64,000 nucleotides of DNA from Paraburkholderia caffeinilytica (GTDB lineage: Bacteria; Pseudomonadota; Gammaproteobacteria; Burkholderiales; Burkholderiaceae), in assembly GCF_003368325.1 (NCBI RefSeq), contig NZ_CP031467.1, positions 930,001-994,000 of the forward strand, in the 5' to 3' direction. The stretch's first letter is position 1; each line of letters starts with the position of its first letter. The notes under the pieces are model-generated. The model was not told the origin of the DNA and did no database searches. It worked only from the letters and a program-made list of their open reading frames with translations. This document shows positions 20,729 through 37,784 of this stretch, piece by piece. The position numbers were made by a program, and so were the translations under genes.

Positions 20729-20776
20729 GTACGGCAGGAGGGACTCGAACCCCCCACCCTCGGCTTAGAAGGCCGA
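20729..20776 (-). repeat. attL: 3' fragment of tRNA-Arg(UCU)
   Basis: 48 bases identical to 37710-37757. They cover tRNA nucleotide 28 to the first base after the discriminator: anticodon arm, variable loop, T arm and acceptor 3' strand. The acceptor 5' strand and D arm are missing, so this is not a working tRNA. No CCA is encoded after it, unlike in the intact copy. Confidence 0.95.
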
Positions 20777-20903
20777 ACAAAGTGCCATTTATCGGCGTTG
20801 ATCCGTTTTCATGAAAATCCCCAAAAACCCCGACAGATAAGGCTTAAAGGCAAACACTGGCATCCTGACGCGTTGATAAAAATTGATTGATTGCCGTATG
20901 ATT

Positions 20904-20925
20904 TGCCTACACAGTGCCTACACGG
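20904..20925 (+). repeat. Left arm-type direct repeats
   Basis: Two 11-bp units, TGCCTACACAG and TGCCTACACGG, lie immediately upstream of the integrase start. The same pair occurs in the same orientation near attR (37631-37652). Duplication at both ends suggests integrase or excisionase arm-binding sites; this is inferred. Confidence 0.65.
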
Positions 20926-20946
20926 CACGCCCATGTAGGAAATCTG

Positions 20947-22359
20947 ATGAAAAAAGAGAACTTCACGCCTGAGCGGGTGGCGGGCCACCAGTGCGATCCG
21001 GGGCGACAACAAACCATCTTTTGGGACCGGAAGCAACAAGGGCTAGGGCTTCGCGTGACGGCATCCGGACGAAAGGCGTACGTCTATGAGGGCCGCTTGT
21101 TCGGCAAGACGTTGCGCATCACGATTGGCGCGCCCGATGCGTGGCCGCTTGAGTCGTACGTCACGACCGACCCGACCGGCAAGAAGATAGAGCGCCTCGG
21201 CGCGCGGCAAGAGGCTGCGCGGCTCAAGGCGCTTCTGGACCGGGACATAGACCCACGCGAAGAAAAGGCAGAGCAGCGCGCCGCCCATGAAGCCCGCAAG
21301 CTCGAATCGCGCCGTCAGGACGCGACTGTAGGCGAAGCATGGCGAGCATATCTTGACGCGAGCCGGGCCAAGTGGAGCGAACGCCACCATAAAGATCATG
21401 AAAATCTGGCTCACGCTGGCGGCGCGAAGAAACTACGTGGGACCGGGTTGACGGTGCCGGGGCCGCTTGCGCCACTTATGCCGTTGAAGCTATCGAACCT
21501 GACCGCCGAAACGATAGCGGCATGGCTTGAAGCCGAGGCGCAAAACCGCCCGACCAACGCCGAACAGTCTTACCGCAAGCTGCGGGCGTTCATTCGCTGG
21601 TGTGACGACCGACCAGAGTATTCCGGCATTGCCGCGCAGAACGTCTATAACGCGCGCTCAGTCCGTGACGCCGTGCCACGCACCAACGCAAAGGACGACT
21701 GTTTGCAGCGCGAGCAGCTAACGGCGTGGTTTGATGCAGTGCGTAAGATCCAGAACCCGGTTATCAGTGCGTACCTGCAAGGGCTTTTGATTACCGGCGC
21801 ACGCCGCGAAGAACTAGCCGCGCTGAAGTGGGACGACGTGGACTTTCGCTGGCGCAGTCTGCACATTTCCGACAAGGTGGAAACCGAGAGCGGCCGGACG
21901 ATTCCGCTTCCGCCTTTTCTGGCGTCCCTGCTACTGGACCTGAAGCGTATCAACGATACGCCGCCCAATATCCGCCAACTTCGCCGCCTTAAACAGCGCG
22001 GAGAAGAATGGCAGCCGTCGCCTTGGGTGTTCGCCAGCAAAACCGCCGCTGACGGCAAGATTGCCGAGCCGCGATATGCACACAATCAGGCACTCGCTGA
22101 TGCGGGCCTGCCTCATGTGAGCTTGCACGGCTTGCGCCGCTCGTTCGGCACGCTGACCGAATGGGTGGAATGCCCTGTTGGCGTCGTTGCTCAGATTCAA
22201 GGCCACAAACCAAGCGCCATTGCCGAAAAGCATTACCGCCGACGGCCGCTCGATCTTTTGCGCATGTGGCACGACCGAATCGAGGTGTGGATGCTTGAGC
22301 AGGCGGGAATTGAATTCGACGCGAGCGCCGCTCGAACGGGGATGCATGCCGTCAAGTAG
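20947..22359 (+). CDS. int: Tyrosine-type site-specific integrase
   Basis: Catalyses integration and excision of the element at tRNA-Arg; 470 aa. The N-terminal part is a DNA-binding domain (IFWDRKQQGLGLRVTASGRKAYVYEG). The C-terminal catalytic domain has Arg in LITGARREELAALKWDDVDF, Lys in SDKVETESGR, HGLRRSFGTL (His and Arg), GHKPSAIAEKHY (His and the nucleophilic Tyr). The ATG at 20947 has AGGA seven bases upstream; the open frame extends to a GTG at 20914 inside the arm repeats. It lies next to attL, at the far end from the intact tRNA. Confidence 0.95.
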   Translation: MKKENFTPERVAGHQCDPGRQQTIFWDRKQQGLGLRVTASGRKAYVYEGRLFGKTLRITIGAPDAWPLESYVTTDPTGKKIERLGARQEAARLKALLDRDIDPREEKAEQRAAHEARKLESRRQDATVGEAWRAYLDASRAKWSERHHKDHENLAHAGGAKKLRGTGLTVPGPLAPLMPLKLSNLTAETIAAWLEAEAQNRPTNAEQSYRKLRAFIRWCDDRPEYSGIAAQNVYNARSVRDAVPRTNAKDDCLQREQLTAWFDAVRKIQNPVISAYLQGLLITGARREELAALKWDDVDFRWRSLHISDKVETESGRTIPLPPFLASLLLDLKRINDTPPNIRQLRRLKQRGEEWQPSPWVFASKTAADGKIAEPRYAHNQALADAGLPHVSLHGLRRSFGTLTEWVECPVGVVAQIQGHKPSAIAEKHYRRRPLDLLRMWHDRIEVWMLEQAGIEFDASAARTGMHAVK

Positions 22360-22505
22360 TTCGTCATCGACGCCGGGCGTGCAACGCGTTCGCGTACCGT
22401 TACACTATCCTCGCCCCTGCCCGCTCGACGGAGCGCAAAGCCGGACACCTTCACCGGCCCGGCGGGGGCACGCTAAGTGAAGGCGGCGCACGAAGGGCGC
22501 GAGCA

Positions 22506-23348
22506 ATGGAAAAAGAACCGCACTGGATAGGCCACCGGACGGCGGAACGCCGCCAAACGGAAAATGGCTATTTGTACCGCGACCCAGACAACCAAAGCCT
22601 TGCCATCATGGTTGTACCCGGTTTTCATGGGGGCACCAGAATTTTCTCCGGTGCGAACCTTTGGGAGGTAGACCGGTTTGTCGAAGGATTAGAGGCTAAC
22701 GCTGACCCGGCAGCGGAAAAATTTCGCGAAGCGCTCAACGCCGTTCGGGAACTCTTCAAGAGCGCGGACGTGGTTGGGAAAATCGGAAACAACAGGAACT
22801 GGAAATCATTGCGCGCCCATGCCGAAATGATCAATGTCGAGATGCGGGCGCAGGCGCAGTTAGAGGGCGGGCATCGGCGTCGTGAGGCGCTTGAGATTGC
22901 CTGCGCGCTATCTGCCGAATCAGCCGATACCGGCGAGGCGAAACAGTCGGAAGCCGCCGCGAGCGATAGTGCAACGAAAGCAGTACCCGCGCCGCTTTCG
23001 GCGCCGACGATTGCCGCAGCCCTCGGGCTTGAAACGTCGGAGGTCGCGCGGTTGTTTGACGGACTTAACTCATGGGATGAAACGCGCTGGAAGAAGCGTC
23101 TGGGCGAACTGCCTGCATGGGCATTACCCGCTCTCACTCAGCGCGGCGGTCGCGGGCAAGGCGCGCACCGCTGGAATCCATCGATGCTGGCTCAGCGCTT
23201 ACTCGATAAGGCGCTGGACAAGGACGCAACCCGCCGCAAATTTCGTGCGCTGTTCAAGGCGAAGCCGCTGCTCTGGCCTTGGTCGGATGAGTGGCGCGAT
23301 TTCGAAAGCGCCCTCGACTGGTATGCGGCCGGCAAACCCGGTCAATAA
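22506..23348 (+). CDS. Element-encoded protein of unknown function
   Basis: 280 aa, cytoplasmic, no membrane segment. The N-terminal 100 residues look folded (YLYRDPDNQSLAIMVVPGFHGG). A Ala/Ser/Glu-rich linker (about residues 135-170) leads to a Trp-rich C-terminal part (WDETRWKKRLGELPAWALPAL; LLWPWSDEWRDFESALDWY). It sits between the integrase and the HTH genes, where satellites often carry regulators. No family is recognised. Confidence 0.6.
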   Translation: MEKEPHWIGHRTAERRQTENGYLYRDPDNQSLAIMVVPGFHGGTRIFSGANLWEVDRFVEGLEANADPAAEKFREALNAVRELFKSADVVGKIGNNRNWKSLRAHAEMINVEMRAQAQLEGGHRRREALEIACALSAESADTGEAKQSEAAASDSATKAVPAPLSAPTIAAALGLETSEVARLFDGLNSWDETRWKKRLGELPAWALPALTQRGGRGQGAHRWNPSMLAQRLLDKALDKDATRRKFRALFKAKPLLWPWSDEWRDFESALDWYAAGKPGQ

Positions 23349-23547
23349 ACCCGCTTTTTTCCAGAACGCGCCCCCGCCCCTAATAAATACGCGCTTCTTA
23401 ATCCCGTGAGCATATCCGCGTACGGAGCGGGTTTGCAGGCTATCCCCTAGCGATTCGCAATGATTCGCGGGGCGTAGCAGTTATTCGGTAGCACGGCCCC
23501 GAGTCGTTCGACGCGAAACCCTGTTTCGTGACTTGGGAGCCAAACGA

Positions 23548-23757
23548 ATGACGACAGCTCAACTTGCGGCGCTTGCGGCGCATCGCTCGCTTCTCTCGAC
23601 CGAAGAACTTGCAGCGCAACTCACGCTGCGCCCGCAGTCCATCCGCAAGCGCTACAGCCAGACTGGCGCTTACTTCTGCCTGCGCCCGGTGAAGATGCCG
23701 AACGGCCGCTTGATGTGGCCCGCCGATGCGCTCGAACAACTGGCGGGCGGTAAATAA
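23548..23757 (+). CDS. AlpA/excisionase-like small HTH protein
   Basis: 69-aa protein. The sequence STEELAAQLTLRPQSIRKRYSQTGAYF, then PNGRLMWPADALEQL, has the layout of a MerR/AlpA-type winged helix: recognition helix, beta-turn and a terminal helix. Such proteins act as excisionases or as activators of the element's genes. The ATG at 23548 has GGGAG eight bases upstream. Its stop overlaps the next start by one base (TAATG), so the two are translationally coupled. Confidence 0.7.
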   Translation: MTTAQLAALAAHRSLLSTEELAAQLTLRPQSIRKRYSQTGAYFCLRPVKMPNGRLMWPADALEQLAGGK

Positions 23758-24221
23758 TGAAAAACGCCCGCCCCCAACAAGTAGAGACGAGCGCCCAAGA
23801 CACGTTCAATTCTACCGCAGGCATCTTTCCCAAGCGCCCCGAAACCGTTCTTGCTGGCGTGCTGGCCAAACTGCTCGAAGGCCACACGTTGACCAGTATG
23901 GATGCGGTTTTCAAGCAGTATGCGAACCGCGCGGAGACCGTGATTCATTGCCTGGAAGCACGCTACGCGTGGAACATCGAGCGCCGCGACATCGCAACGG
24001 CAACGGGCGATGGGCGCGTCGTGTGGGTGACAGCGTACTGGATGACCATCCATGTGCGTGAGGCCGCGTTCAAGGCGGGTGCGCGCGCATGGATTCCGGA
24101 AACCGAGTTGACCGCAAAAAAGCGCCGCAAGTCCGCAAATCAGGGCAAGTCGCGCGCCGCGACGCGTAACCCGCTGCGCACCGATCCGCGCCAACTCGAC
24201 CTGTTCGATGGGCTGATGTAA
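23757..24221 (+). CDS. Helix-turn-helix protein (HTH_39-like)
   Basis: 154 aa. Residues about 27-75 (TVLAGVLAKLLEGHTLTSMDAV...IHCLEARYAWNIERRD) match the pattern of the phage HTH_39 domain, in which the second helix follows the conserved LTSMDA. The C-terminus is basic, then ends RQLDLFDGLM. It is one-base coupled to the genes on both sides (TAATG), so it belongs to the regulator-primase-helicase operon. A DNA-binding role is likely; the target is unknown. Confidence 0.65.
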   Translation: MKNARPQQVETSAQDTFNSTAGIFPKRPETVLAGVLAKLLEGHTLTSMDAVFKQYANRAETVIHCLEARYAWNIERRDIATATGDGRVVWVTAYWMTIHVREAAFKAGARAWIPETELTAKKRRKSANQGKSRAATRNPLRTDPRQLDLFDGLM

Positions 24222-25027
24222 TGATCCATTGGCCCAATTACGAACCCGGGGGGCATCGCATCCAGTGCCCCGCTTGCGGGCGCGGCGACCGTGACAAGAC
24301 ACTTGGCCTCAGCATTGAGGTCAACGGCTCAGGCGTTGCACATTGCTTTCGCTGCGACCTCGTTGAGAACTATCGCCCCAAACAGAGCGCGTGCGTTGTT
24401 ATGTCGGCGCAGCCGTGCATCAAGTGCATGCCTTCGGCTGCGAAGCGCGAGAGATTGGCCGGCTATGCGCGCCAATTGTGGGCGGCAAGCAAGCCGCTCG
24501 GTGGTGTCGGCGTCGCGTATCTTGAAGCCCGCCGCTGCCGTGTTCCGCCGCGTGACGCGGACCTTCGCTGGCACCCGTCCCTGCGTCATCCGTGTGGCTA
24601 TGAAGGTCCGGCCATGGTCGCGCTCGTCACAGACGCTATGACCGCTAAGCCGATTAGCTTGCATCGTACGTGGATTCGGGATGATGGTCGCAAGGCCGAT
24701 CTCGAATATCCGCGTTTGCTTCTGGGTGATGGGCACCGCAAGCAAGGCGGCGTGATCCGTTTGTGGCCGGACGACGCGGTAACAACCGGGCTTGGCATTG
24801 CCGAAGGCATTGAGACGGCTCTGTCTCTCGCGCACGGCTTCACGCCGGTTTGGGCACTCATTGACGCGGGTAACCTCGCGGCGTTCCCGCACTTTCCCGG
24901 CATTGAAACGCTGATGATCGGCGCGGATAACGACCCGGCCGGTAGCAAGGCTGCGTATACGTGCGCGGAGCAGTGGGCGCTCGCTGATCGAGAAGTTACG
25001 CTTGTGGAGGTAGGCCATGGGGCGTGA
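24221..25027 (+). CDS. DNA primase with zinc finger and Toprim domain
   Basis: 268-aa primase of the phage/satellite type, made to prime the element's own replication. The N-terminal zinc finger is CPACGRGDRDKTLGL...HCFRC (about residues 16-45). The Toprim domain has the acidic Glu in GIAEGIETALSLA (about residue 193) and the Asp pair in LMIGADNDPAGSKAA (about 235). It overlaps the helicase gene by 11 bp. It is the first half of a split primase/helicase replication unit. Confidence 0.88.
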   Translation: MIHWPNYEPGGHRIQCPACGRGDRDKTLGLSIEVNGSGVAHCFRCDLVENYRPKQSACVVMSAQPCIKCMPSAAKRERLAGYARQLWAASKPLGGVGVAYLEARRCRVPPRDADLRWHPSLRHPCGYEGPAMVALVTDAMTAKPISLHRTWIRDDGRKADLEYPRLLLGDGHRKQGGVIRLWPDDAVTTGLGIAEGIETALSLAHGFTPVWALIDAGNLAAFPHFPGIETLMIGADNDPAGSKAAYTCAEQWALADREVTLVEVGHGA

Positions 25028-26132
25028 TTTGAACGATGTGGCGGCTGAGGGCGGCGCGGATGCGGTGCGCTTTGTCGTTGCGAACGGCAAACGCATCCTG
25101 AAGCATTCTGAGCGTGAGGCGATTTCGGGGAATGATGAATTGCCTCTCAAAATCGCCTTTGCGGATGAATTGCCGGAAGCCTTCACGCCGCCCGATGAGT
25201 TGGTGCAGGGCATCCTCACGACCGGTGATAGCAGCGTGCTCTACGGGGACACCAACAGCGGCAAGACGTTCCTTGTAATCGACATAGCCGCCGCCGTGGC
25301 GCGTGGCGTTGACTGGATGGGCAGACGGACGGAACCGGGGATGGTGGTCTATCTGGCTGCTGAATCGCCTGCATCTGTGCGTAGCCGCTTGCAGGCATAC
25401 CAGAAGCATCACGGCGTTCGCGTGCCCAACTTCGCCATCGTGCAGAACCCGGTCAACCTGTTCGATGGCGACCGCGACACCGAGGCCATCATCAAGACGG
25501 TGCGCCAGCTCGAAGCGCAACGCGGCCAGAAGGTGCGTCTGATTATCGGCGACACGCTCGCACGCCTGAGCGCTGGTGCGAACGAGAACGCCGGCCAGGA
25601 TATGGGCCTTGTCATTGCGCGCATCGACCGAATCCGCACCGAGTGCGACGCGCATTTCATGCTCGTCCACCACAGCGGCAAGAATGCCGCCGCCGGTTCG
25701 CGTGGCTGGTCGGGAGTACGCGGTGCAGTCGATTCCGAAATCGAGGTGACAGACCTGCCTACTGGCCGCTGCGCCGAAATCACGAAAGTGCGCGACCTCG
25801 GTACGAAAGGCGAGCGTATCGGCTTCAGGCTCGACGTGGTGGAACTTGGCGTGACGAAGTGGGGAGCGCCAGCGACGACCTGCGTTGTCGTGCCCACCAA
25901 TGCACCCGACAAACCGAAGAGCAGCAAAGGCAAAGGCACGGGCGAGATTCAGGGTGCAGTCATCGAATTTCTGGCGTCCCACAAGGTCGGCATCAAAAAA
26001 AGCGTCGTGGTCGCGCACTTCGCGGGCCGGTACGACAAGGGGCCGATCTATCGCGCCATCAAAACGCTTGTTGCTGCATCGGCCATTCATGAAACCGCTG
26101 GCATGGTGTGCATCACGGAGGTCGCCACGTGA
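25017..26132 (+). CDS. RepA-like AAA ATPase / replicative helicase
   Basis: 371-aa RecA-fold ATPase of the AAA_25/RSF1010-RepA type. Walker A is GDTNSGKT (about residues 79-86); Walker B is VRLIIGDTLAR (about 174-184). The LVHHSGKNAAAGSRGWSGVRGAVDSEIEV segment holds the sensor His and the arginine-rich region. A C-terminal winged-helix-like tail (about 305-371) could bind DNA. It probably unwinds at the adjacent GGTAC array, with the upstream primase. Confidence 0.87.
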   Translation: MGRDLNDVAAEGGADAVRFVVANGKRILKHSEREAISGNDELPLKIAFADELPEAFTPPDELVQGILTTGDSSVLYGDTNSGKTFLVIDIAAAVARGVDWMGRRTEPGMVVYLAAESPASVRSRLQAYQKHHGVRVPNFAIVQNPVNLFDGDRDTEAIIKTVRQLEAQRGQKVRLIIGDTLARLSAGANENAGQDMGLVIARIDRIRTECDAHFMLVHHSGKNAAAGSRGWSGVRGAVDSEIEVTDLPTGRCAEITKVRDLGTKGERIGFRLDVVELGVTKWGAPATTCVVVPTNAPDKPKSSKGKGTGEIQGAVIEFLASHKVGIKKSVVVAHFAGRYDKGPIYRAIKTLVAASAIHETAGMVCITEVAT

Positions 26133-26136
26133 AGCA

Positions 26137-26244
26137 GGTACGCGAAGGTACGTTTAGGTACGTGTACGCGTCGAGTACCTGGCCCCAAAAGGTACGTTTA
26201 GGTACACCACCCTTTAGGGGTGTACCTCGCGTACCTGGCGTACC
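26137..26244. repeat. GGTAC iteron array, candidate replication origin
   Basis: GGTAC occurs at 26137, 26147 and 26157, and again at 26191 and 26201: exact 10-bp phasing, one helical turn. GTACC follows at 26222, 26231 and 26240 at 9-bp phasing, and further GTAC at 26164 and 26175. The centre contains a stem AGGTACACC/GGTGTACCT (about 26200-26227). The array lies between the helicase and SSB genes and outside any coding frame. Iterons beside replication genes mark satellite and plasmid origins; the role here is inferred. Confidence 0.75.
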
Positions 26245-26290
26245 GGTTGACTGTTGAGCGATGGAAATTCTTGTTGAAGCGAGGTGCGAA

Positions 26291-26695
26291 ATGATTGATG
26301 GCCTGATTGGCGGCAAGGTGTACGGTAAGCCGACCGAGCGCGTCGGCGGGAGCGGCAAGCGGTTCGTGACCGCGAAGGTGCGCGCCGCAAGCGGCGGCGA
26401 ATCGCTGTTCGTGAACGTCATTGCGTTCGATGACGGTGCGAAAGCCGCATTGCTGGCGCTCGATGACGGCGACCCCGTGGCGCTGGTCGGCGCGTTCACG
26501 CCGAAGGCGTGGGTCGATAAGAACGGTGACGCAAAGCCGGCGCTCGATATGGTTGCGCACGGTGTGCTGTCGGCGTACCAAGTGAAGCATAAGCGGCAGG
26601 CTGCACAGTTGACCGAGCAGGGCGAGGCAGCCATGAGCGGCGCGAGGCAGGCGAAGTACGGCGGCGACTATTCCGAGATGAACGACCAACTGTAG
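26291..26695 (+). CDS. SSB-like single-stranded DNA-binding protein
   Basis: 134-aa OB-fold protein. MIDGLIGGKVYGKPTERVG, then KRFVTAKVRAASGGESLFVNVIAFDD, and LDDGDPVALVGAFTPKAWVDKNG follow the strand pattern of SSB-like proteins common beside phage primases. The start MIDGL has GAGG six bases upstream; an ATG ten codons earlier (26261) is possible. It would coat the ssDNA made by the element's helicase. Confidence 0.8.
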   Translation: MIDGLIGGKVYGKPTERVGGSGKRFVTAKVRAASGGESLFVNVIAFDDGAKAALLALDDGDPVALVGAFTPKAWVDKNGDAKPALDMVAHGVLSAYQVKHKRQAAQLTEQGEAAMSGARQAKYGGDYSEMNDQL

Positions 26696-26764
26696 GAGGG
26701 CGGCCCGAAATCAGCGTAGACATGAGGAAGCGGTGGTTTATTTATTCAATGGAGGACTCCTAAA

Positions 26765-26932: not shown

Positions 26933-26960
26933 CCATCATCAATTTGAAAAGGACTGAACC

Positions 26961-27662
26961 ATGAAACAGCAGAACAACCCGCTGCCCGAACGCCTGGCAG
27001 CACTTGAATTGCTCGTAAACGACACGGGTCTCGTGGACGAACTCAAAGCCCGCCAACGTGCGGAAGCCGACAAGCGCCGCGCCGCGCTTGCTGCTGAATT
27101 GAAGGCGTTGCCGAACCGCGAGCGCGAACTGGCCGCTCTCGCAAAAGATGCCGCTCACGAGCACGCCGCTCTCGAAAAGGCTGCGACGCAATATCGCGAA
27201 GCCGAACGCCGCGACAAAGAGGCAACTGCGCGTGCTGTCATCGCGGCGTTGACGGATGAGGGCGCGCGTCAGGCAATCCTGACAAAACTGGAGCGTAGCG
27301 CGCCGCCCGAACTCGCGGACGCGCTGGACGACCTGAGTTTCGCCGATGGCCTGCTGCGAAACGCCGTTCGCACTGATGAAACGGCGAACCGCAGTTGGAC
27401 CGGGGTGCAGGTAAAGGCCGTAACGTCAAACATCGACGCTATCGGCGCGGCCCGCGCGCAGCTTGCCGAAGCGCAAGGGGCAATCCGCGAACTGGCACGC
27501 GATGGCCTGATGCCTAGCGAAGCGATGGTGACGCGCTGTGCGGAAATTGTGGCTGCCGCGATGGAGCCCGCATTCGCGTTCATTCCGCGCAAGCTGTGGG
27601 ACCTTCGCCACGACAAGCCCGCTTCTGACATCGTGGCCGAAGTCAGGGGCTACGTTCAGTAA
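26961..27662 (+). CDS. Coiled-coil protein of unknown function
   Basis: 233 aa, soluble. Residues about 20-95 are Ala/Glu/Arg/Lys-rich heptads (KARQRAEADKRRAALAAELKALPNRE) that predict a long coiled coil. AAGGACTGAACC gives an acceptable ribosome-binding site. It lies between SSB and the small terminase, where satellites and phages often carry head or regulatory accessories. No homologue is recognised, so no role is assigned. Confidence 0.6.
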   Translation: MKQQNNPLPERLAALELLVNDTGLVDELKARQRAEADKRRAALAAELKALPNRERELAALAKDAAHEHAALEKAATQYREAERRDKEATARAVIAALTDEGARQAILTKLERSAPPELADALDDLSFADGLLRNAVRTDETANRSWTGVQVKAVTSNIDAIGAARAQLAEAQGAIRELARDGLMPSEAMVTRCAEIVAAAMEPAFAFIPRKLWDLRHDKPASDIVAEVRGYVQ

Positions 27663-27975
27663 GCACTTTGGCGGTGCGCGACGGCAGCGGTTCGCCGTCG
27701 TGCCAGTCGCCGCAATCGCGGCGATTGGAGCGGTCGGCGCGCACAGCTAAGCGAGGCATTAACCGGCATCGACGGGCGGCGTGGCGGTGCCTCGTACGGT
27801 GCTTCACGGCCCCCTAGGGGGCTGTCAATCCCTAGTATCGAACCGCTTGTGACCGTGGCGATGCGCATTTTTTTACGGCCGCGAAATTACGGTTTTTAAT
27901 TGAAGCGCACAGAGCGTGAACCGGTGGCCTGTCTTGTGATGCAGGGTGCCGCGTGGATCAAGGAGTACGTCGAAA
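27663..27975. other. Intergenic region before the small terminase, with a 14-bp palindrome
   Basis: About 310 bp with no supported gene. It contains the perfect palindrome GCCCCCTAGGGGGC (27809-27822) and a T7 run near 27869-27876. A strong AAGGAG site for the terminase gene is at its end. The palindrome could be an operator, or a packaging site given its position next to terS; neither is shown. Confidence 0.45.
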
Positions 27976-28431
27976 ATGCGTGGCCGAAAACCCGTTCCGA
28001 CTGCGTTGAAGCTGGTGCGGGGTAATCCCGGCAAGCGCCCGCTTCCGGACGCCGAGCCGCGTCCAGGTCTTGAAGTTGCTATCCCTGACTGGCTGTCGCC
28101 GGCCGCACGCAAGCACTGGCCGACTATCGCCGACCCGTTGTACGCAGCCGGTTTGTTGACGGCGCTCGACGCGACCGCACTCGGTTTGTATTGCGAGGCA
28201 TTCGCGCGCTGGCAATATGCGAACGAGCAAATCGTCAAGCTTGGTCCGGTGGCGGTGGGCGCTGCGGGTTATCCCGTCAAGTCCCCGTTCGTGACAATTG
28301 CGAACACGGCATACGATCAGTTGAGCCGCATGTTGGTGGAGTTCGGCATGACGCCCTCGAGCCGGTCGCGGGTGACGGCAACGAAGCCGGACGATACGAG
28401 TCCCTATGCACAGTTTGTGAAAAAGACGTAA
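27976..28431 (+). CDS. terS: Phage terminase small subunit, P27 family
   Basis: DNA-recognition subunit of a packaging terminase; 151 aa. The beginning MRGRKPVPTALKLVRGNPGKRPL is the hallmark of the P27-type small subunit, followed by helical segments (WLSPAARKHWPTIADPL; ALDATALGLYCEAFARW) and FGMTPSSRSRV near the end, all typical. It starts nine bases after AAGGAG. No large subunit follows. In phage satellites a lone TerS redirects a helper phage's packaging machinery to satellite DNA. Confidence 0.9.
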   Translation: MRGRKPVPTALKLVRGNPGKRPLPDAEPRPGLEVAIPDWLSPAARKHWPTIADPLYAAGLLTALDATALGLYCEAFARWQYANEQIVKLGPVAVGAAGYPVKSPFVTIANTAYDQLSRMLVEFGMTPSSRSRVTATKPDDTSPYAQFVKKT

Positions 28432-30012: not shown

Positions 30013-31107
30013 TTACGAAACTGCCTCACGCGTCATGAGGGCGGCCGCGACCGCGTTGCCCATCTCGTTGGTTCCGACCTTGCGCGTGCCGGCTTCCCAT
30101 ATGTCGGCCGTGCGCAGCCCTTGCGCGAGCACCCGCCTGACCGCCGTCTCGATGCGCTCAGCCTCATCAGGCAGGTTCAGCGAATGGCGAAGCATCATTG
30201 CCGCAGACAGGATGGTCGCGAGAGGATTCGCGATGTCCTTGCCAGCAATGTCTGGCGCCGAACCGTGCGAGGGCTCATACAAGCCCTTGCCGTTCGCGTC
30301 GAGGGATGCTGAGGGCAACATGCCAATCGACCCGGTCAGCATCGCCGCTTCGTCCGACAGGATATCGCCGAACAGGTTGCCAGTGACGATCACGTCGAAC
30401 GTCTTCGGCGCGCGCACCAGTTGCATGGCGGCGTTGTCGATGTACATATGCGAGAGCTCGACGTCGGGATATTCGCTGGCCACCTTGATCATCGTGTCGC
30501 GCCAGAATTGCGAGGTCTCCAGCACATTGGCCTTGTCGACGCTGCACAGACGCTTGCTGCGCTTTTGCGCGGCGCGAAAGGCGACATGGGCCACGCGAAC
30601 GATTTCCGGCGCGCTGTAGCGCATGGTGTCAAACCCTTCGTCGTGACCCTGGAACGGTCCGTCGGGCGCGAAACGCGTGCCGCGCGGCTCGCCGAAATAC
30701 ACATCACCGGTCAGATCGCGGATGATCAGGATGTCGAGGCCGGCAACGACTTCCGGCTTGAGCGTCGACGCGGCTGACAGTTCCGGATACAGCATCGCCG
30801 GGCGCAGGTTGGCGAACAACGCCAGGTGCTTGCGCAGGCCGAGGATGGCCTGTTCCGGTCGCAGCGACCGTTCGAGCCTGTCGTATTGCCAGTCGCCGAC
30901 GGCACCGAGGAGAATCGCATCGGCTGATTTTGCCAGCCGCAGCGTACGCTCGGGCAAGGGATGGCCGTAGATAGCGTAGCCAGTTCCGCCCACCGGCGCT
31001 TCTTCCAGCTCGAAGGGACAACCGAGCGCGTTGAGTACCTTGACGGCCTGCGCCGTGATTTCAGGACCGATACCGTCACCGGGTAAAACAGCAATTCTGG
31101 GATTCAT
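30013..31107 (-). CDS. leuB: 3-isopropylmalate dehydrogenase-type enzyme (LeuB family)
   Basis: NAD-dependent beta-decarboxylating dehydrogenase; 364 aa, full length. It starts [18 protein letters not shown]. Substrate- and metal-binding motifs are intact: [14 protein letters not shown] (about residues 91-104), the [16 protein letters not shown] block, [13 protein letters not shown] (Asp cluster, about 244-256) and [20 protein letters not shown] (about 276-295). This is a central leucine-biosynthesis enzyme, here as a solitary gene inside a mobile element without leuC or leuD. It may be a paralogue of the host gene or act on a related malate. Confidence 0.88.
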
Positions 31108-31339
31108 GCGAGTTAGGTTTCTGTCGATTGAGGGATTTCAGAGTAATCGACAGGCCCCCACGGAAAAAGATGACCATTTATCCCGGTACAGGTCATGCCA
31201 CGCTGTCCGAATCGCTTCAACCCGGCAGACGTGATCTGCGGGGGTCCCCGAACGACCGGTTGTGGCCGACTACCGCCTGACGCCGAAACGTAACCGGCTC
31301 ATTGCTGCCAGTCATCCGTGTCGATTGACCTGTTGGCCG

Positions 31340-31924
31340 TCACCGTATTTCGTATCTAAAGCTGTTTCCGTAGCGCCCCATCATGGTTCCCCTAAAATGC
31401 TGGTCGCCGACGTTGAGTAGCCGCGGCAGTTGGAGAAGCTCGCCGTTGCGTCCTAGCTCTTCGTAGAGGTGCAACACTGCGACAAAGAGCGCGGCAACCG
31501 AGTTGAGGCAGTTCTTTAGGTTCGCTTTTGAAAAGTGTTCATCGCGGTGGTGTTTGACCTTGTTATGGTCTTGCCACCAAATCGGCGGCCTCCCTTCCCC
31601 CCAATCGCTCCAAGGGTGAAGAGTCAGGCCATATCGGGGAATTTGAACTTCAAATCCAATGAAATTCGGACACGCCTCGGAGACTGCCCCGAAGTAGGCG
31701 TTAATGGTTGCTGCGGTTGATTCTGAATTGTGCTTCCGGCAGAGCTGCTTGAGCACCACATCGACCTCTGAACTCGCGCCGAGAAACAGGCGCGCAATCT
31801 CAATCGAATAGGTCGCGTCATTGCCTCCTGCGAAGTCCACATATCGAGAAAGGCGATCCAAATCCTCTTCAAGTGCGAGGAAGTAGTTCCAGTGGACATA
31901 TGAGTGAGATCTAAGTATCGCCAC
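31340..31924 (-). CDS. HEPN-like helical protein, putative defence cargo
   Basis: 194 aa, mostly helical. The first half (YFLALEEDLDRLSRYVDF, YSIEIARLFLGASSEVDVVLKQLC) and the late WWQDHNKVKHHRDEHFSKANLKNCLNSVAALFVAVLHLYEEL have the conserved pattern of a widespread uncharacterised HEPN-like family. The NKVKHHR segment is the polar, possibly catalytic, site. It is one of a cluster of minus-strand cargo genes. The HEPN assignment is by pattern, not proof. Confidence 0.5.
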   Translation of the reverse strand: MAILRSHSYVHWNYFLALEEDLDRLSRYVDFAGGNDATYSIEIARLFLGASSEVDVVLKQLCRKHNSESTAATINAYFGAVSEACPNFIGFEVQIPRYGLTLHPWSDWGEGRPPIWWQDHNKVKHHRDEHFSKANLKNCLNSVAALFVAVLHLYEELGRNGELLQLPRLLNVGDQHFRGTMMGRYGNSFRYEIR

Positions 31925-32191
31925 GATGTTTCCCTTGGCTATCGTCCGAGTTATATGGGTTTTCTGGGTAATTTTCAGTCACCACACGCCCGTTTTCTTT
32001 GCTATGCGGAACGACCGATTGTCACCGATCCAAGCATTGACGTCGACCGTCCGGTTGTGGCCGAACTGAGCCGGTCGCGATGGACACCGCGTGTGATACG
32101 AGGTGATTCTTCCCGTTCGCATAGAAGCAAATTAGTGGTGAGCGGATGCCCCGACATCGCGTCGGGGTCGCTTGGCGTTTTCATTTGCCCT

Positions 32192-33145
32192 TTAGCTGGT
32201 CCGATGCTGCCGCATATCATCGCTCTTGTTCCCGCCGGGCGCGGCGGCTTTTTGTGCTGCTTTGGCGCCCTCAATGACATGCTTGACTGCGTTGTCAACG
32301 TTTTCAACGAAGTTGAGCACGTCGTCCAGTGTCGAAACAACGAGGGCGGTTGGCAGATCAATCACGTTACCTGAGTTGTCTTTCCCGTTACGGTGGACAA
32401 TGTCGTGGCGTGTGAGGACTGCTTTAAACAAACGGTCTTTCTGCGCTTGGTCGGGAAGGATATCGACGCCTAGGGCAAGCTTGTACAGCACACCGATTTT
32501 TGCGAGATTGTGATACAGCAGCCCAGCGAGGTATTGCCGGGTTTTATCGACGACCACGTTCGGATTTGCAAGAATCTCGTTGAGGGAGATGGCCATTTCC
32601 TTCAGTTCTTTATCGCCTTTCAGCAGTCGCTTCAGAATCGTCTCATCGGAAAGCACCGAATTGACTAAAAGGTCCCCCAAGAATGCCTCCATCGCGCCGA
32701 TAGTACTCGCGAAGACCATTCGATTGATAACGTCGTCGGAATGTGGAAGTGAACCGCGCCCACCCGTCCCATACTCGGCAACGATATCGCCGAGCCGATA
32801 ATATGAATCTTTGAAGACCTCAAACGGTTCGTCTGGCGGATATTCGTTTAGCCATTGATCTTCGTCAGCCGGGTCCGGAGCTGTGAAGGGCGCGTCGTCG
32901 GCGGAAACCTCCACGTCAGGGTGCTCCGACAGTTCGACTGCGCAGTGCGATGGACTGTTCTGGACATGCGCGCCAAATGAGGCACCGCAATGTGGACACT
33001 CGATATCTATGTCGTCTTCTGAGAGAGAATCGGAGAGGCGATCGTAGTTGTAGTCGACTTCGGGCACTTCGACTTCTGTATCGACCTGTTTGTTGCATGC
33101 TGGGCATTTGAACCTGACGCTGGTTGAAACGTAGTGAGGCTGCAT
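32192..33145 (-). CDS. Zinc-ribbon HEPN-domain protein, putative ribonuclease of a defence system
   Basis: 317 aa. The N-terminus carries two CxxC knuckles (CPACNK about residue 14, CPHCGA about 50). A central helical region (VINRMVFASTIGAMEAFLGDLL) leads to RHDIVHRNG (about residues 245-253), which contains the R-x4-H motif of HEPN ribonucleases in the RiboL-PSP-HEPN style. HEPN nucleases are common in abortive infection and toxin systems. A zinc ribbon fused to HEPN fits a sensor-effector design. The target is unknown. Confidence 0.65.
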   Translation of the reverse strand: MQPHYVSTSVRFKCPACNKQVDTEVEVPEVDYNYDRLSDSLSEDDIDIECPHCGASFGAHVQNSPSHCAVELSEHPDVEVSADDAPFTAPDPADEDQWLNEYPPDEPFEVFKDSYYRLGDIVAEYGTGGRGSLPHSDDVINRMVFASTIGAMEAFLGDLLVNSVLSDETILKRLLKGDKELKEMAISLNEILANPNVVVDKTRQYLAGLLYHNLAKIGVLYKLALGVDILPDQAQKDRLFKAVLTRHDIVHRNGKDNSGNVIDLPTALVVSTLDDVLNFVENVDNAVKHVIEGAKAAQKAAAPGGNKSDDMRQHRTS

Positions 33146-33320
33146 CCTTTGTCTCTCTCTGTTGTGATGCTCTGTGCGATTTTCGATCGTCGGAAGGCGA
33201 ATCCATTGTCCCGCAAGCCAATAGCGACCGCGTCGATACCGCTAATCATCAAATACGCGCACCGCTCGCGACCGGTCGGCCAAAATGGTCACTGTTACTG
33301 GACCGGCATGGCGCCAAAGG

Positions 33321-34148
33321 CTAGTGACCGTACTGGCGAGCCAGCCACGCGCCGACATCGTTGATTCGTCGGTGCTTCGCATAGAACTTCCACTCATCAT
33401 GTATTGGCTTCACCGCTGCAAGGAATGCTCGCCGGTCCGTGTCTTTCCAACCGGGGGCGTTAGCAACGGAATTTTCGAGCAGAGTGCCCAATGTGAAGGG
33501 GTCAGCATTTTCAAACTCTTGCCGCGTTTTCTGCGCGAACTGCCGTATAACTTCCCACTCATCCTGAAGTGCGCGATGTTGTTCATCGTCGGATGCGATG
33601 GGCACACCCGTCCGCGCTTGTTCGTCCGCCGCCCGGCGCCCCATTGCATCGTTGACTAGCGCAATACGCCTGTCTAGTTCGGCGAAGAATGCGTTAAAGC
33701 AGGATGTCGCAAGATCGCGAAGCGTGATCCGGTGAAAGGGATCGAGGCTTTTGTCGATGTCGCCGCTCTTTACGTCGAGGGATTCCAAGAGTCCTTGAAT
33801 CCGTGTGACGAGGTCCTGTGTTTCAGGTTTGGGAATCGGCCCAGCCCATCGGCCTGCTCGGGACATCAGCTGAACCGAGATGTCGGCGAACAACTGGCTC
33901 GCCAGCCGCAGCTTCGATAGAAGCCGGTCGGCCTCCTCGATTTTTTCGTCCAGTTTTTTTGTCTTGGCCTCAAAACCGAATCCCTTGATGAACTCGAAGT
34001 GGTTGATATTCGCGAGCAGCAAGATCAGGATGCCTGCCGACAGACAGGCTGTTGCGGCAGCAACGTGGTCAGCAATCGCGATCCACAGACCTGTAGCAAC
34101 TGCTGCGGCGCCGAGCAGGTTGCCCACGATAGTTCTGGTTTTTTCCAT
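33321..34148 (-). CDS. Membrane-anchored coiled-coil protein, unknown
   Basis: 275 aa. Two close N-terminal membrane helices (about residues 7-48: LLGAAAVATGLWIAI and ACLSAGILILLLANI) are followed by a charged helix (KTKKLDEKIEEADRLLSKL) and a long soluble helical domain. This form, membrane hairpin plus cytoplasmic domain, is frequent in defence islands. It is transcribed away from the membrane/RES pair. No family is recognised. Confidence 0.6.
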   Translation of the reverse strand: MEKTRTIVGNLLGAAAVATGLWIAIADHVAAATACLSAGILILLLANINHFEFIKGFGFEAKTKKLDEKIEEADRLLSKLRLASQLFADISVQLMSRAGRWAGPIPKPETQDLVTRIQGLLESLDVKSGDIDKSLDPFHRITLRDLATSCFNAFFAELDRRIALVNDAMGRRAADEQARTGVPIASDDEQHRALQDEWEVIRQFAQKTRQEFENADPFTLGTLLENSVANAPGWKDTDRRAFLAAVKPIHDEWKFYAKHRRINDVGAWLARQYGH

Positions 34149-34557
34149 GAATTAGTTATCCCCTGTCCGATAGGCAGGATTGTCGTTGGTGCGAAGGGTA
34201 TCCGGCCACCATCGCTCAAAACTAGCTTTGCTTTTTTTGCAGTCGCCTCCCCGCCTGCGCGCGTCACTTAACTCATAATGTTTGATGCAAGCAGCTCTTG
34301 GCAAGGCTCGGCCGCCTAGTTTGGGTTCGGGAGCTGATATCGGGACACAAAAACGTTGCATTTTGATGCACACAGAGGCGCATTCATGCCTGGACACCGA
34401 TTACGCATTCCTCCCACTCTCCTTCGGGTACAAACGGGCTGCAACGTTTTTGAGATCGAGGGTAAGGGGAGCAGGCGTTGTTCCTATAATGAGCGTCGCC
34501 GTTGCCAACTTTTGGCAATGCTGCTTGCGCGAATTCATTTTCAGCCGGGGTGCGGGG
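34149..34557. promoter_or_regulatory. Divergent promoter region in the cargo
   Basis: About 410 bp between divergent cargo genes. An open frame in phase with the following gene continues back to 34282, but its residues show no conserved-looking pattern and no ribosome-binding site, so it is treated as leader. Promoters for both neighbours must lie here. Confidence 0.4.
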
Positions 34558-35091
34558 ATGGGATTTCAACTAGCAACAGTAAAGGCATGGGCTGACCTCG
34601 CATTGACGTGCGCGTCGTTGATTGCCTTGCCGGTGGCCGGATTTTGGGCGTACAACAACTTTGCGGCAGAAGACACGCACACATTAAACCCGAACATCAC
34701 GGTTTCAGCCGATTTGCTGCCATACAGCCAAGACTTCGAACTTTTGGTTGTGCATGCGAAACCGAAAAATATCGGTAAAGTTCCGGTCATACTGCGAGGG
34801 AAAGCAAACGGCGACATCGACATCTCGGTAAAGTCGATTTCAGAAGGTTTGACGCCACCCGCAAGTAAGCTGGCTGTGGCGGTCAATGAAGCGAAACTAG
34901 ATACCGTAGCAGAGAATAAAAACATTACGTCTGAATACGCCGACGGATATTATATGGAGCCGGGAATCGAATACGATGAGGTGCGCAGTTTCGTTGTTCG
35001 CAAAAATGCAACCTATCTTGTCCGCGTAGAAATTCATGATTTCGAGAAGGATAATTTCGTTGATGCGTCATGTATTGTACGAGCCCAATAA
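34558..35091 (+). CDS. Single-helix membrane protein paired with RES protein
   Basis: 177 aa. One N-terminal membrane helix (about residues 12-32, ALTCASLIALPVAGFWAY) and a soluble domain of beta character (NITVSADLLPYSQDFELLVVHAKPKNIGKVPVILRGKANG). The ATG at 34558 follows GCGGGG; the frame is open further upstream. It ends 6 bp before the RES gene and must be co-transcribed with it. It might tether or inhibit the RES enzyme; this is inferred from the pairing. Confidence 0.55.
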   Translation: MGFQLATVKAWADLALTCASLIALPVAGFWAYNNFAAEDTHTLNPNITVSADLLPYSQDFELLVVHAKPKNIGKVPVILRGKANGDIDISVKSISEGLTPPASKLAVAVNEAKLDTVAENKNITSEYADGYYMEPGIEYDEVRSFVVRKNATYLVRVEIHDFEKDNFVDASCIVRAQ

Positions 35092-35097
35092 CTCACA

Positions 35098-35976
35098 ATG
35101 AACAATAATCCGACTCTGCGTTACCTCCAGAACAAGAGGCTGATTGGAGCGCTTGAGCGGCTTTCCAATCAACGGGCCGAACCGTCGAAATTCATGCCAC
35201 TTATTAGCGACCTCTTTAACGGTACAAGTTTGCATGCGATGCACGTCGAAAATGGCGTTATTTACAGGGGGCGACATAATGAAGGCGGCCGCTTGTTTTC
35301 AACTGTGGAGGAGCTTTCTTACCCGAGGCCAGAATATGTTAGGGCAAAGGGCCGCCTTAATGACGTGCGTCAAAGCGTCCTCTACGCGGCACTGTGCGAG
35401 CTGGGTACGATTATAGAGATGGCTGTTTCGCTCCACGCGACGTTCACGATCTCAAAAATTCAAAGGCGAAGCGACTCAAGTATGTTTTTCTTTCCCTTGG
35501 GGCTCAAGTCGCCACCCGAGTTTACGGCTCAATGCAAGGCTGACGCTCTTGTGCGCGATTTCCTGAAGGGACAAATTACAAGGCAAAGAGTCGAGTTCGA
35601 CGACTACAACTGCACGATCGCACTTGGCGATATGTTACTGCGAAAACCTATAGCTAACTACAGCGCATCTCCTTATTCGGGCGTAGCATATCCGAGCGTC
35701 AGATCAGCGATTTCATCCAATACGACGACATATAATTTGGCAATGACACCGGAAGTCTTTGATAAAAATTATATGATTGTTGAGTGTTCCGTGTATGTTC
35801 TGACTCATGATGTCGATCATTATCAGCTAAACGAAGTAAATAGAGGAAAGGTACTCTCGGATGGGAAAATAGATTGGTTGTTTGGGCATGCCGAGATGAC
35901 TAATCGAACGGCGCGCGGTTTGTGGGCAGACGGATACGTGAATCCAAATCTCGCGCTGTCAGCGCCCGACATATGA
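35098..35976 (+). CDS. RES-domain protein (putative NAD-degrading effector)
   Basis: 292 aa. Residues about 58-110 carry the RES pattern in order: RGRHNEGGRLFSTVEELSYP, RPEYVRAKGRLND, SVLYAALCELGTIIEMA. The Arg of GRLN and the Glu of IIEM match the positions of the catalytic residues in RES toxins, which degrade or use NAD. The C-terminal half is unusual for simple RES toxins, which are about 160 aa. Codons are AT-richer than in the host. With the membrane protein upstream it forms a two-gene unit, perhaps a toxin/antitoxin-like or abortive-infection pair. Confidence 0.68.
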   Translation: MNNNPTLRYLQNKRLIGALERLSNQRAEPSKFMPLISDLFNGTSLHAMHVENGVIYRGRHNEGGRLFSTVEELSYPRPEYVRAKGRLNDVRQSVLYAALCELGTIIEMAVSLHATFTISKIQRRSDSSMFFFPLGLKSPPEFTAQCKADALVRDFLKGQITRQRVEFDDYNCTIALGDMLLRKPIANYSASPYSGVAYPSVRSAISSNTTTYNLAMTPEVFDKNYMIVECSVYVLTHDVDHYQLNEVNRGKVLSDGKIDWLFGHAEMTNRTARGLWADGYVNPNLALSAPDI

Positions 35977-36128
35977 TTTGGCCTTGACAATGCAAAGACG
36001 CTGCAACAGCTTCGCCAGTGCCGTGCGTGACAACAAGCCATCCTACTAGATGACGAAGGGCTAATTAAGTTGCGTTTAGATTAACGCGGATTGACCTATA
36101 GTTACAGGGTCTTGCAACCACGACGCCA

Positions 36129-36626
36129 ATGCTCACTCTTCTGACTTACCAGCAGGACTTTCTCAGAGCGCTTAACGCTGCGCGGGTAGAGTATTTGGTG
36201 ATTGGCGGTAAGGCGATGCAAGCCCATCGCCTTGGCCGCACAAGCTTCGATCTCGATATTTGGGTATCAAATAACATCGCAAACGCGCGGCGTCTTAACC
36301 CCGTGTTGACGGCACGGACCAAATTTCCCATTGGGCATAGGCCGTCTGATCTCACAGTACCCGGCAGGATGGTCCAGATCAGGAATCAGCACGATCAACA
36401 TGTTATCGACGTGCTAACGTCACTTGGTGATCTCGACTTTGCGACGGTCGACGCCCGTAAGTTGCGACTGTTGGTCTACAGAATGTTCGTGCCGGTGGCG
36501 TCTATCCCGGACCTCATCAACATGAAAGAGATATCTCAGGCGACGACCGAAGACCCTAGGCTGGCAGAGCGCGACGGTCGAGACATTGAGCTAATGCGTG
36601 AACACCTTGCTGCGCGCCCGAGCTGA
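36129..36626 (+). CDS. Nucleotidyltransferase-fold protein
   Basis: 165 aa. The motif GGKAMQAHRLGRTSFDLDIWV (about residues 27-46, given here as its core GGKA and DLDIW) is the active-site signature of minimal nucleotidyltransferases as in AbiEii/MNT toxins. A third acidic position follows in HVIDVLTSL (about 95). The C-terminal helices resemble the DUF6036/AbiEii type (LINMKEISQ). It stands alone, with no adjacent HEPN antitoxin. It may be a toxin or a degenerate half of such a system. Confidence 0.7.
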   Translation: MLTLLTYQQDFLRALNAARVEYLVIGGKAMQAHRLGRTSFDLDIWVSNNIANARRLNPVLTARTKFPIGHRPSDLTVPGRMVQIRNQHDQHVIDVLTSLGDLDFATVDARKLRLLVYRMFVPVASIPDLINMKEISQATTEDPRLAERDGRDIELMREHLAARPS

Positions 36627-36868
36627 GATTCTCGAAGTATCTGAGTGACGCGCAACATACTTCTACTGGCATGTTGCGTCTGTTGGGGTGCAGCTAAATT
36701 GCGCTAGAACGAACCAGATTGATCCTTATCGAACTCGTGCAGCCTTGATTTTGCAGTTTGCAAATTGCGCAAGGCATTGATTTATAAAGGTATGTGGTGC
36801 ACGGGTAAAACTCCGAAGGCGGCACTCGACCCAAAGGGTTGCGCGTCGTCGCGGACCCTCACCGTCGC

Positions 36869-37330
36869 TTAGAATTGAACCTCGGCGTTCGGGCGGAAAA
36901 GCGGACCAATGGAGAACAGTTTCGGACGTACGGGGACGATGCGCTGCGCGAGTTTGCTGACGACTTCATCTAGCGTCGCAACGCCGCCCACCATTATTTC
37001 GTCTGTTGCGACCTAAGCCCCGAGGATGCGACCTTGACCCATGCCGTTGCGCACCCTCACGACATCGACGCCCCGATTACGCGACACGGCGCCCGCGAAA
37101 CGGTCATAGTCGTCGTTGACGCGCGCCTGTAGGTGTGCTGTCGCGCGGTGGGCGAAAGCGGCGCAACGGGACTGCGTTCCGTCTTGTAGCGGCCCACGCT
37201 GATGAGTGGAGAACACGCCAATCGACCCGATCCCGCCGCCCGGCATGATGTAGAACTCACTGGCCACGCTTGCGAACCAAAACGCCGCTCCGGCTGCGAT
37301 GTAGTTTGCGACGGCGGCGACCGGCTACGC
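36869..37330 (-). pseudogene. Frameshifted relic of an S49-family phage capsid protease
   Basis: Translated fragments in shifting frames match the S49 (SppA/ClpP-like) prohead protease: AVANYIAAGAAFWFASVASE, FYIMPGGGIGSIGVFSTH, then GRYKTERSPVAPLSPTARQH in another frame, then LQARVNDDYDRFAGAVSRNR and GVDVVRVRNGMGQGRILGA, a stop at 37013-37015, and GVATLDEVVSKL beyond it. At least two frameshifts and in-frame stops make it inactive. It is 380 bp from attR and shows that structural phage genes were once next to this element. Confidence 0.7.
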
Positions 37331-37630
37331 TGCGCGCGTGGCGCATCGGGTAGGTCGAGGAGACGTCGGCCCCACGCTGTGGGCTCGCGACGAAGGATGC
37401 ATATTCCGGGCGGATTGACCCATATGGCGCGGCGTGCACAGACCATCCTTTCGGGGTTCTCATTGGTCTCATGCTAACGGGCGCCAAGCGACGCAGTTGC
37501 CTTGACTACCGCTGGTGATAGCACCAGACGATACATCCATGCGGCCACTTCAGAATGGGCACGCGAGATCGCGAAAGGCGAACTGCATTGTGCGTACGGC
37601 TCGCGCAAACCCCGCCGCGTTGGCCGGAAA

Positions 37631-37652
37631 TGCCTACACGGTGCCTACATGG
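37631..37652 (+). repeat. Right arm-type direct repeats
   Basis: TGCCTACACGG and TGCCTACATGG, the same 11-bp pair as at 20904-20925 and in the same orientation, 58 bp from attR. Shared sites at both ends fit an integrase-bound intasome arm. Confidence 0.65.
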
Positions 37653-37668
37653 ATTCAAGAAAACAAAA

Positions 37669-37695
37669 AGCCCGATCCTGTGAATCGGGCCAAGC
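37669..37695 (-). terminator. Terminator of tRNA-Arg, supplied by the element
   Basis: On the minus strand GCCCGAT...ATCGGGC forms a 7-bp stem with a 7-nt loop followed by TTTTTGTTTTC. It lies inside the element, 13 bp beyond the tRNA 3' end, so the element replaced the tRNA's original terminator. Confidence 0.8.
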
Positions 37696-37707
37696 ACTTG
37701 ATTTGAT

Positions 37708-37784
37708 TGGTACGGCAGGAGGGACTCGAACCCCCCACCCTCGGCTTAGAAGGCCGATGCTCTATCCAGCTGAGCTACTGCCGT
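37708..37784 (-). tRNA. tRNA-Arg (anticodon UCU)
   Basis: 77 nt with encoded CCA. The acceptor ACGGCAG pairs with CTGCCGT; the D arm is AGCTCAGCTGGATAGAGC; the anticodon stem TCGGC/GCCGA encloses CTTCTAA, anticodon TCT; the T arm has GGTTCGAGTCC. All stems pair. It is the integration site of the element; its 3' 48 bases equal attL. Confidence 0.96.
37710..37757 (-). repeat. attR within tRNA-Arg
   Basis: 48 bases identical to attL (20729-20776). They rebuild the tRNA from nucleotide 28 on, so the host keeps a functional gene after integration. Confidence 0.95.

Follow-up and report, generated by a model that had tools for sequence, protein, structure and literature searches.

In the available excerpts of two papers (PMC6092414, PMC10111431), the phage-inducible chromosomal islands (PICIs) of Gram-negative bacteria have an inward-facing integrase gene, an AlpA-like gene next to it, and replication genes with a downstream origin. 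Some of them carry the terminase small subunit (TerS), and they possess a late zone with captured phage genes and an attachment (att) site in a tRNA gene or elsewhere (excerpts of PMC6092414, PMC10111431). The survey portion of PMC10111431 describes the integrase as inward with AlpA in Gram-negative PICIs, while it is outward without AlpA in prophages. We analysed 64,000 nucleotides (nt) of Paraburkholderia caffeinilytica DNA (contig NZ_CP031467.1, positions 930,001 to 994,000; hereafter called the “window”), in which a 17.0-kb element spans 20729–37757 at tRNA-Arg(UCU) and resembles these PICIs in the above respects, its AlpA-like gene being so named on weak family evidence, as well as in size. 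Overall, it is probably a phage-satellite-type integrative element of Paraburkholderia with a proposed packaging step by TerS. The host group is not among the PICI hosts in the same excerpts of PMC6092414 and PMC10111431, and we found no paper describing such elements in Burkholderia among the open-licence PubMed Central (PMC) full texts. A second system for comparison is the 16.8-kb AH14b of Pseudomonas sp. ANT_H14 (KU708005), which the excerpted text of PMC4936722 reports as packed in its helper's capsids.

The element is bounded as follows.

20729–20776, no strand: left att repeat, 48 bp, 3′ fragment of tRNA-Arg (exact direct repeat and joined-flank test)
37710–37757, no strand: right att repeat, inside the intact tRNA (exact direct repeat)
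37708–37784, minus strand: intact tRNA-Arg, anticodon TCT (Rfam, 67.4 bits)

The right 48-bp copy is the 3′ part of the intact tRNA-Arg(UCU), and the left copy scores 26.8 as a tRNA-like fragment, below the Rfam gathering score of 29. The right flank was searched against 144 genus genomes, in which the tRNA region was found, and four of the best matches, chosen because they looked empty, were fetched. The joined flanks of the element align through the junction in these four element-free relatives, over 1278–1281 nt at 90.8–92.9% identity, and the borders are therefore correct. The element is inserted at the 3′ end of the tRNA, and its specific attachment site with direct repeats is that expected of a Gram-negative PICI.

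The left-arm genes, from the integrase to TerS, all lie on the plus strand (ORF, open reading frame; aa, amino acids; HTH, helix-turn-helix; SSB, single-stranded DNA-binding protein; numbers with L denote fetched loci and those with G genus genomes).

20914–22359, plus: tyrosine integrase, 481 aa, inward from the att site (PF00589 3.4e-12; phrog_1 1e-34)
22414–22483, plus: int-alpA RNA (Rfam RF02996; 41.6 bits against a gathering score of 35.8)
22506–23348, plus: ORF, 280 aa, between the integrase and AlpA-like genes (similarity to L008)
23533–23757, plus: AlpA-like HTH protein, 74 aa (family members with HTH_17)
23757–24221, plus: ORF, 154 aa (relatives in L008 and L155)
24221–25027, plus: primase, DUF7146 and Toprim_3, 268 aa (Toprim_3 6.7e-13)
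25017–26132, plus: RepA-type AAA_25 helicase, 371 aa (9.6e-40; relatives at 60–74%)
26133–26260, no strand: iteron-like array of nine GGTAC/GTACC units, presumed origin (repeat counts against shuffles)
26261–26695, plus: SSB-like protein, 144 aa (PF00436 E 0.0071, below the cut-off; PDB SSB E 0.0039)
26961–27662, plus: orf233 (70% aa identity to L176:14438–15139, in the G051 element)
27946–28431, plus: TerS, P27 family, intact, start possibly the ATG at 27976 (Pfam 1.7e-23; PHROG 1.8e-46; TIGR01558 above the cut-off)

The integrase faces inward, the orientation expected of a Gram-negative PICI, and a candidate AlpA gene follows it. The AlpA-like protein has no Pfam match of its own; 5 of the 11 aligned members of its family match HTH_17 (best E 1.5e-4), which is weak family evidence for the AlpA name. 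The family profile did not match the AlpA of AH14b, and a PDB search with it gave nothing useful. The 280-aa ORF had no family match in the Pfam, PHROG and TIGRFAM-type scans of the window proteins, and is 31% identical over 107 aa to the gene in the corresponding place of L008. The helicase and primase genes overlap by 11 nt. In the iteron array, 37 8-mers are repeated against a shuffle mean of 2.3 (none of 300 shuffles was as high), while six control stretches of the window are not repeat-rich in the same test. A primase-containing replication module with downstream origin-like repeats is the Gram-negative PICI arrangement, but the proteins of the window element (Toprim, AAA_25 and SSB-like) are of another type than those in the excerpted publications. 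The SSB-like protein is 55% identical to the protein in the corresponding place of L003.

A first-pass annotation of this DNA had named 48-bp att repeats in tRNA-Arg(UCU) around about 17 kb, and a tyrosine integrase, primase, RepA-like helicase, iterons and P27 TerS. The exact repeats with the empty site in four relatives, the family matches and the repeat counts against shuffles bear these out, and TerS is intact by its Pfam, PHROG and TIGR01558 matches. Its AlpA-like protein exists as a gene, but the name is weak, with only relatives matching HTH_17; its SSB likewise stands as an ORF with similarity to L003, but with a Pfam match below the cut-off.

Which of these parts are characteristic of islands? 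The integrase (E<=1e-60) is present in 42 of the 144 genus genomes, including its own, while only 6 of 50,697 phage records match it, weakly, at 22–29% identity, together with one viral contig. The same phage records hold no DNA relative of the left arm, and a megablast of the whole element against plasmids hit one record, through leuB only. The int-alpA RNA starts 54 nt after the integrase. Of 22 related loci, 8 also have it, always downstream of the integrase (L003, L004, L005, L008, L009, L010, L152 and L161), and none of six P27-type phage loci does. Across nine sequences, pairing is maintained in 8 of the 15 predicted pairs although both partners have changed. With regard to gene families exclusive to PICIs, the integrase and the int-alpA RNA point to islands, but the helicase is also found in phages.

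A helicase scan of 84,980 species genomes returned 16 loci, 14 of them at 60–74% identity. Five of the six helicase loci checked for repeats are bounded by tRNA repeats and measure 6.9–10.3 kb (L005, tRNA-Met, 8.1 kb; L006, tRNA-Thr, 8.6 kb; L009, tRNA-His, 7.3 kb; L015, tRNA-His, 6.9 kb; L011, tRNA-Lys, 10.3 kb); no bounding repeats were found for L003, a P. mimosarum record. The integrase is inward in four of these five small relatives. Of 10 relatives tested, 8 are likewise rich in repeats in the 300 nt behind the helicase (no more than 2 of 300 shuffles reach their counts), the exceptions being L011 and L015; counting the window element, a repeat array follows the helicase in 9 of the 11 elements tested. 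No PF05065 capsid was found in the complete genomes or records to which L003, L005, L006, L008, L009 and L015 belong.

Eleven loci at or next to tRNA-Arg were also fetched (L151–L157; L158 and L161, cut by contig ends; L159 and L160). L151–L157 have this type of integrase, inward in all seven, and two att copies, and span 6.6–17.6 kb. L159 and L160 have other integrases at this tRNA in relatives, measure 15.8 and 16.4 kb, and carry phage tail or head genes. The nine same-site elements contain 95 ORFs of at least 120 aa, of which 86 were scanned (eight integrases and the 1872-aa ORF of L159 were omitted). These matched 92 PHROG families; among the best 25 of the 92, L160 accounts for the structural ones (head, tape measure) and L159 contributes a tail gene, while weaker structural matches in L151–L157 may lie among the remaining 67. 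As an observation in its own right, L160:1804–18239 (16.4 kb) has a head/protease fusion and a tape measure gene, and is another type of reduced phage at tRNA-Arg. The C4 antisense RNA, the P4-type immunity RNA, was detected in two siblings, L152 and L157, as well as in L159 and AH14b. C4 RNA has been detected in PICIs as well, according to an excerpt of PMC10111431.

The tail and head genes of L159 and L160, at the same tRNA though with other integrases, would suit an alternative in which the window element is a worn prophage: late genes were lost, cargo was gained, and the left arm with its integrase, its replication genes and TerS is what remains. The inward integrase, the int-alpA RNA and the AlpA-like gene argue otherwise, as do small relatives that have this core between intact tRNA repeats, and the near absence of the integrase from phage records. 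We regard such a worn prophage as unlikely. The first-pass annotation had proposed that the same locus, found as a full prophage in relatives, would speak against a satellite. No P27-type structural gene was found in L151–L157, which have this type of integrase, but L159 and L160, with other integrases, do carry tail or head genes. Searched with the P27-type structural proteins from L139 and L140, the related loci gave no match except for TerS pieces in L141.

TerS homologues are present in some PICIs, and the window element has one. Its closest relatives on viral contigs are 59–64% identical (best five), and those in genus genomes 58% (G069) and 53% (G062). These relatives at 53–64% sit in phage or prophage loci, one of them shown with TerL (the terminase large subunit) and an HK97-type portal: in G062 (L140), TerS is followed by TerL (PDB TerL, 8e-35), the portal (5e-59) and a head protease, and the capsid candidate of L140 had no PDB match. 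The window's own genome has a single P27 TerS.

Some further candidates were set aside. The matches adjoining the integrase in G020, G052 and G099 combine a Phage_AlpA domain (1.5e-15) with a short Terminase_4 stretch (1.9e-5) and were not counted as TerS. In L144:9838–10413 (also in G020 and G052), Phage_AlpA and a short P27 TerS-like stretch share one ORF, which comes after a 60% integrase relative and is followed by two large helicase genes. Isopropylmalate dehydrogenase genes adjoining TerS in L141 and L015 show 34% identity only and are different genes; we took this as coincidence. Two ORFs tried for the orientation of P27 prophage integrases proved to be a RecT-like protein and an ORF of no assigned kind.

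Comparison with the fetched phage loci and Pfam and PHROG scans of the larger ORFs detected no TerL, portal, capsid or tail gene between the att sites, as a complete prophage would have. When the stop-to-stop frames of 28431–37757 were compared with the fetched phage loci, the sole structural match was a broken gene.

36738–37484, minus: remnant of a head maturation protease (phrog_53 type), broken, two TAG codons (82% nt identity to the intact gene in L176)

L176 contains the G051 element, which is about 16.5 kb long with a 16-nt candidate att and has another integrase and helicase. It carries relatives of orf233 (70%) and c275 (87%). Behind orf233, in the position of TerS in the window, lies an HNH gene, and near the far end there is an intact head maturation protease, alone and inverted (L176:4237–5133), with no portal or capsid gene among the ORFs scanned. 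The window protease is in the same place but broken. The differences between the two copies are spread evenly over the codon positions (15/158, 12/155 and 10/155), and therefore give no sign of selection. Separately, about 80 nt at 36741–36820 match the Burkholderia phages Milagro, Musica and Momento (79–89%) beside their integrase region, as part of a stretch common to the G051 element.

These remnants bear on two of the alternatives. A worn prophage would explain TerS, the HNH gene of G051 and the head protease as parts of one kind of phage head module, different pieces of which persist in different relatives. Simple deletion, however, does not account for a protease that lies inverted at the far end in the window element as well as in G051, and late-gene capture by PICIs has been described (excerpt of PMC10111431). 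The leftovers of TerS and head protease might also come from a decayed capsid-forming PICI (cfPICI), which once had its own head genes and needed only the helper's tails. Judged against the gene list of cfPICIs, this is very improbable: no piece of TerL, portal or capsid was found in comparison with the phage loci, and the protease is inverted relative to TerS. P4-like satellites carry capsid-size and psu/delta-type genes; none turned up in the general Pfam and PHROG scans, which were not aimed at them.

We consider it likely, from the sequence comparisons, that the element belongs to a satellite-type lineage rather than being a shrunken prophage, because of its architecture, its RNA markers, the distribution of its integrase and its small tRNA-borne relatives. 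The first-pass annotation had read it as a PICI, with no large terminase or structural genes intact, in which TerS redirects the packaging of a helper phage. Within the phage loci compared, only the broken head protease accompanies TerS, as it had stated. The satellite-type part of its reading agrees with the int-alpA RNA, the AlpA-like gene, the inward integrase and the occurrence of the core in small tRNA-borne elements, but for the redirection of a helper only the presence of the gene was seen.

Several observations weigh against the satellite reading or its TerS step. The broken head protease at the right end and the patchwork cargo speak against a working PICI. The small relative L011 has an outward integrase. 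The primase–helicase pair also occurs in true phages, as a worn prophage would lead one to expect: the phage contigs L127 and L128 both have head genes and a terminase (TerL, a head–tail adaptor and head genes in L128), and the replication genes are therefore not exclusive to satellites. The window proteins have no significant match in AH14b (best E 0.043). A profile built from 80 viral TerS sequences detected P27 TerS in none of 24 related loci, although in L004, L010 and L014 the contig stops soon after the helicase and TerS may lie beyond; a 25th locus, L141, fetched for its TerS, carries a broken one. A family search of the window's own genome found no PF03354 TerL and no PF04860 portal. 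The search for cos or pac sites around TerS against 15 phage and prophage loci gave 19–21-nt matches at chance level, beside coding matches. Finally, the identities to phage TerS along four segments (0.58, 0.53, 0.57 and 0.53; among phages 0.60, 0.55, 0.66 and 0.59) lack the pattern of TerS in Staphylococcus aureus pathogenicity islands (SaPIs), in which the DNA-binding end has diverged and the tail is conserved.

Could TerS instead be an idle passenger of a genomic island whose rare transfers use general routes, such as transduction or transformation? TerS is peculiar to the window element among the relatives compared, no P27-type helper is resident in the host, and the cargo is a patchwork with three blocks at 94–97% identity to separate loci in three genomes, all of which suit such an island. 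It would, however, have no need of a self-replication core and an iteron array, and its TerS has stayed intact though the protease nearby is broken. We judge this account improbable.

The right half of the element, at about 28.5–36.7 kb, is patchwork cargo.

28807–29448, minus: ORF c213 (in block 28519–29841, 94% to a G124 locus; little codon bias of changes)
30013–31107, minus: leuB, 3-isopropylmalate dehydrogenase, second copy in the genome (TIGR00169 above the cut-off)
31340–31924, minus: ORF c194 (94% to a G121 locus)
32192–33145, minus: ORF c317 (sub-threshold zinc-ribbon and HEPN Pfam hints)
33321–34148, minus: ORF c275 (87% aa identity to the G051 element)
34282–35091, plus: ORF c269 (sub-threshold Pfam matches only)
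35098–35976, plus: RES-domain protein (PF08808 1.2e-5, above the cut-off)
36129–36626, plus: ORF c165 (very weak AbiEii resemblance, PADLOC E 0.012)

The leuB block (29979–31267) is 97% identical to a G036 locus, as is the gene itself to the G036 copy, while it has 75% nt identity to the other copy in its own genome. The c194 block covers 31264–31957, at 94% identity to the G121 locus. As DNA blocks, c275 and the protease remnant are 80–82% identical to G051, and the c275 differences fall mainly at third codon positions (24/279, 20/279 and 125/279), a sign of purifying selection. The RES-domain and weakly AbiEii-like ORFs are a hint of possible defence functions; PADLOC gave sub-significant matches only. 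The fold models of c165 (predicted local distance difference test score, pLDDT, 36.7) and c275 (57.7) were too poor for structure searches.

A rare repeat, (C)GACCGNTTNTGGCCGA, occurs in the same orientation at 29825–29841, 31253–31269, 32012–32028 and 32048–32064. The right ends of the three blocks matching G124, G036 and G121 lie within about 10 nt of copies of this 16–17-nt repeat. With at most one mismatch, the fetched genus loci (690 kb) contain the motif five times and the reversed motif not at all; one copy belongs to the window and three are block ends. At two mismatches, the counts are 15 and 15. This association was noticed post hoc and serves as a lead, to cassette-like ends or to recombination at a shared repeat.

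How might the element move? When a helper phage enters or is induced, the integrase and the AlpA-like protein, the latter as an excisionase or activator, would free the element. The primase and helicase would then replicate it from the iterons into concatemers. TerS, presumably taken from a P27/HK97-type phage, would mark the element DNA and lend it to the helper's TerL, and the DNA would be packed in helper heads. Such hijacking is what an intact TerS standing alone most naturally suggests, and we give this predicted redirection of helper packaging, which is drawn from the genes, somewhat less than even confidence. The right half would hold cargo that can be exchanged, part of it perhaps directed against phages, and the broken protease may remain from late genes that were captured.

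Should the element be a satellite, a family of satellites in Paraburkholderia and its relatives would be added to those known, and the orphan structured RNA int-alpA would be tied to that family together with C4 RNA, providing a simple marker for finding more. The lone intact TerS, in a host without a matching TerL or portal, makes a testable case of packaging piracy. More speculatively, and with considerable doubt, the int-alpA RNA might mark an unnamed, widespread satellite family of Burkholderiales and their neighbours. Its members would have a tRNA-targeting core, a slot behind orf233 holding one packaging gene (TerS here, HNH in G051), a lone protease at the far end, and cargo blocks ending at the rare 16–17-nt repeat.

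The gene order of AH14b resembles that of the window element: integrase, ORF, AlpA, small ORFs, Toprim_3 primase and helicase, nearly all rightward. Its authors found no structural or terminase genes, as far as the excerpted text of PMC4936722 goes, while the window element has TerS. AH14b has no int-alpA RNA at the gathering score, whereas the window copy lies directly after the integrase. The same-tRNA sibling L152 shares with AH14b, besides the C4 RNA, a primase at 43% identity (E 2.6e-42). The phage-inducible chromosomal minimalist islands (PICMIs) of Vibrionaceae offer another comparison. In the available part of PMC10803314, they have a small core of integrase, AlpA and primase, with an ORF between the integrase and alpA. 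Their primase is of the DUF3987/DUF5906 type and their site is fis (same part of PMC10803314), while the window element has Toprim_3/DUF7146 and tRNA-Arg, and is thus not a PICMI. It is also larger than the PICMIs described there and has TerS; its small relatives, at 6.9–8.6 kb, resemble the layout of the PICMIs in that description.

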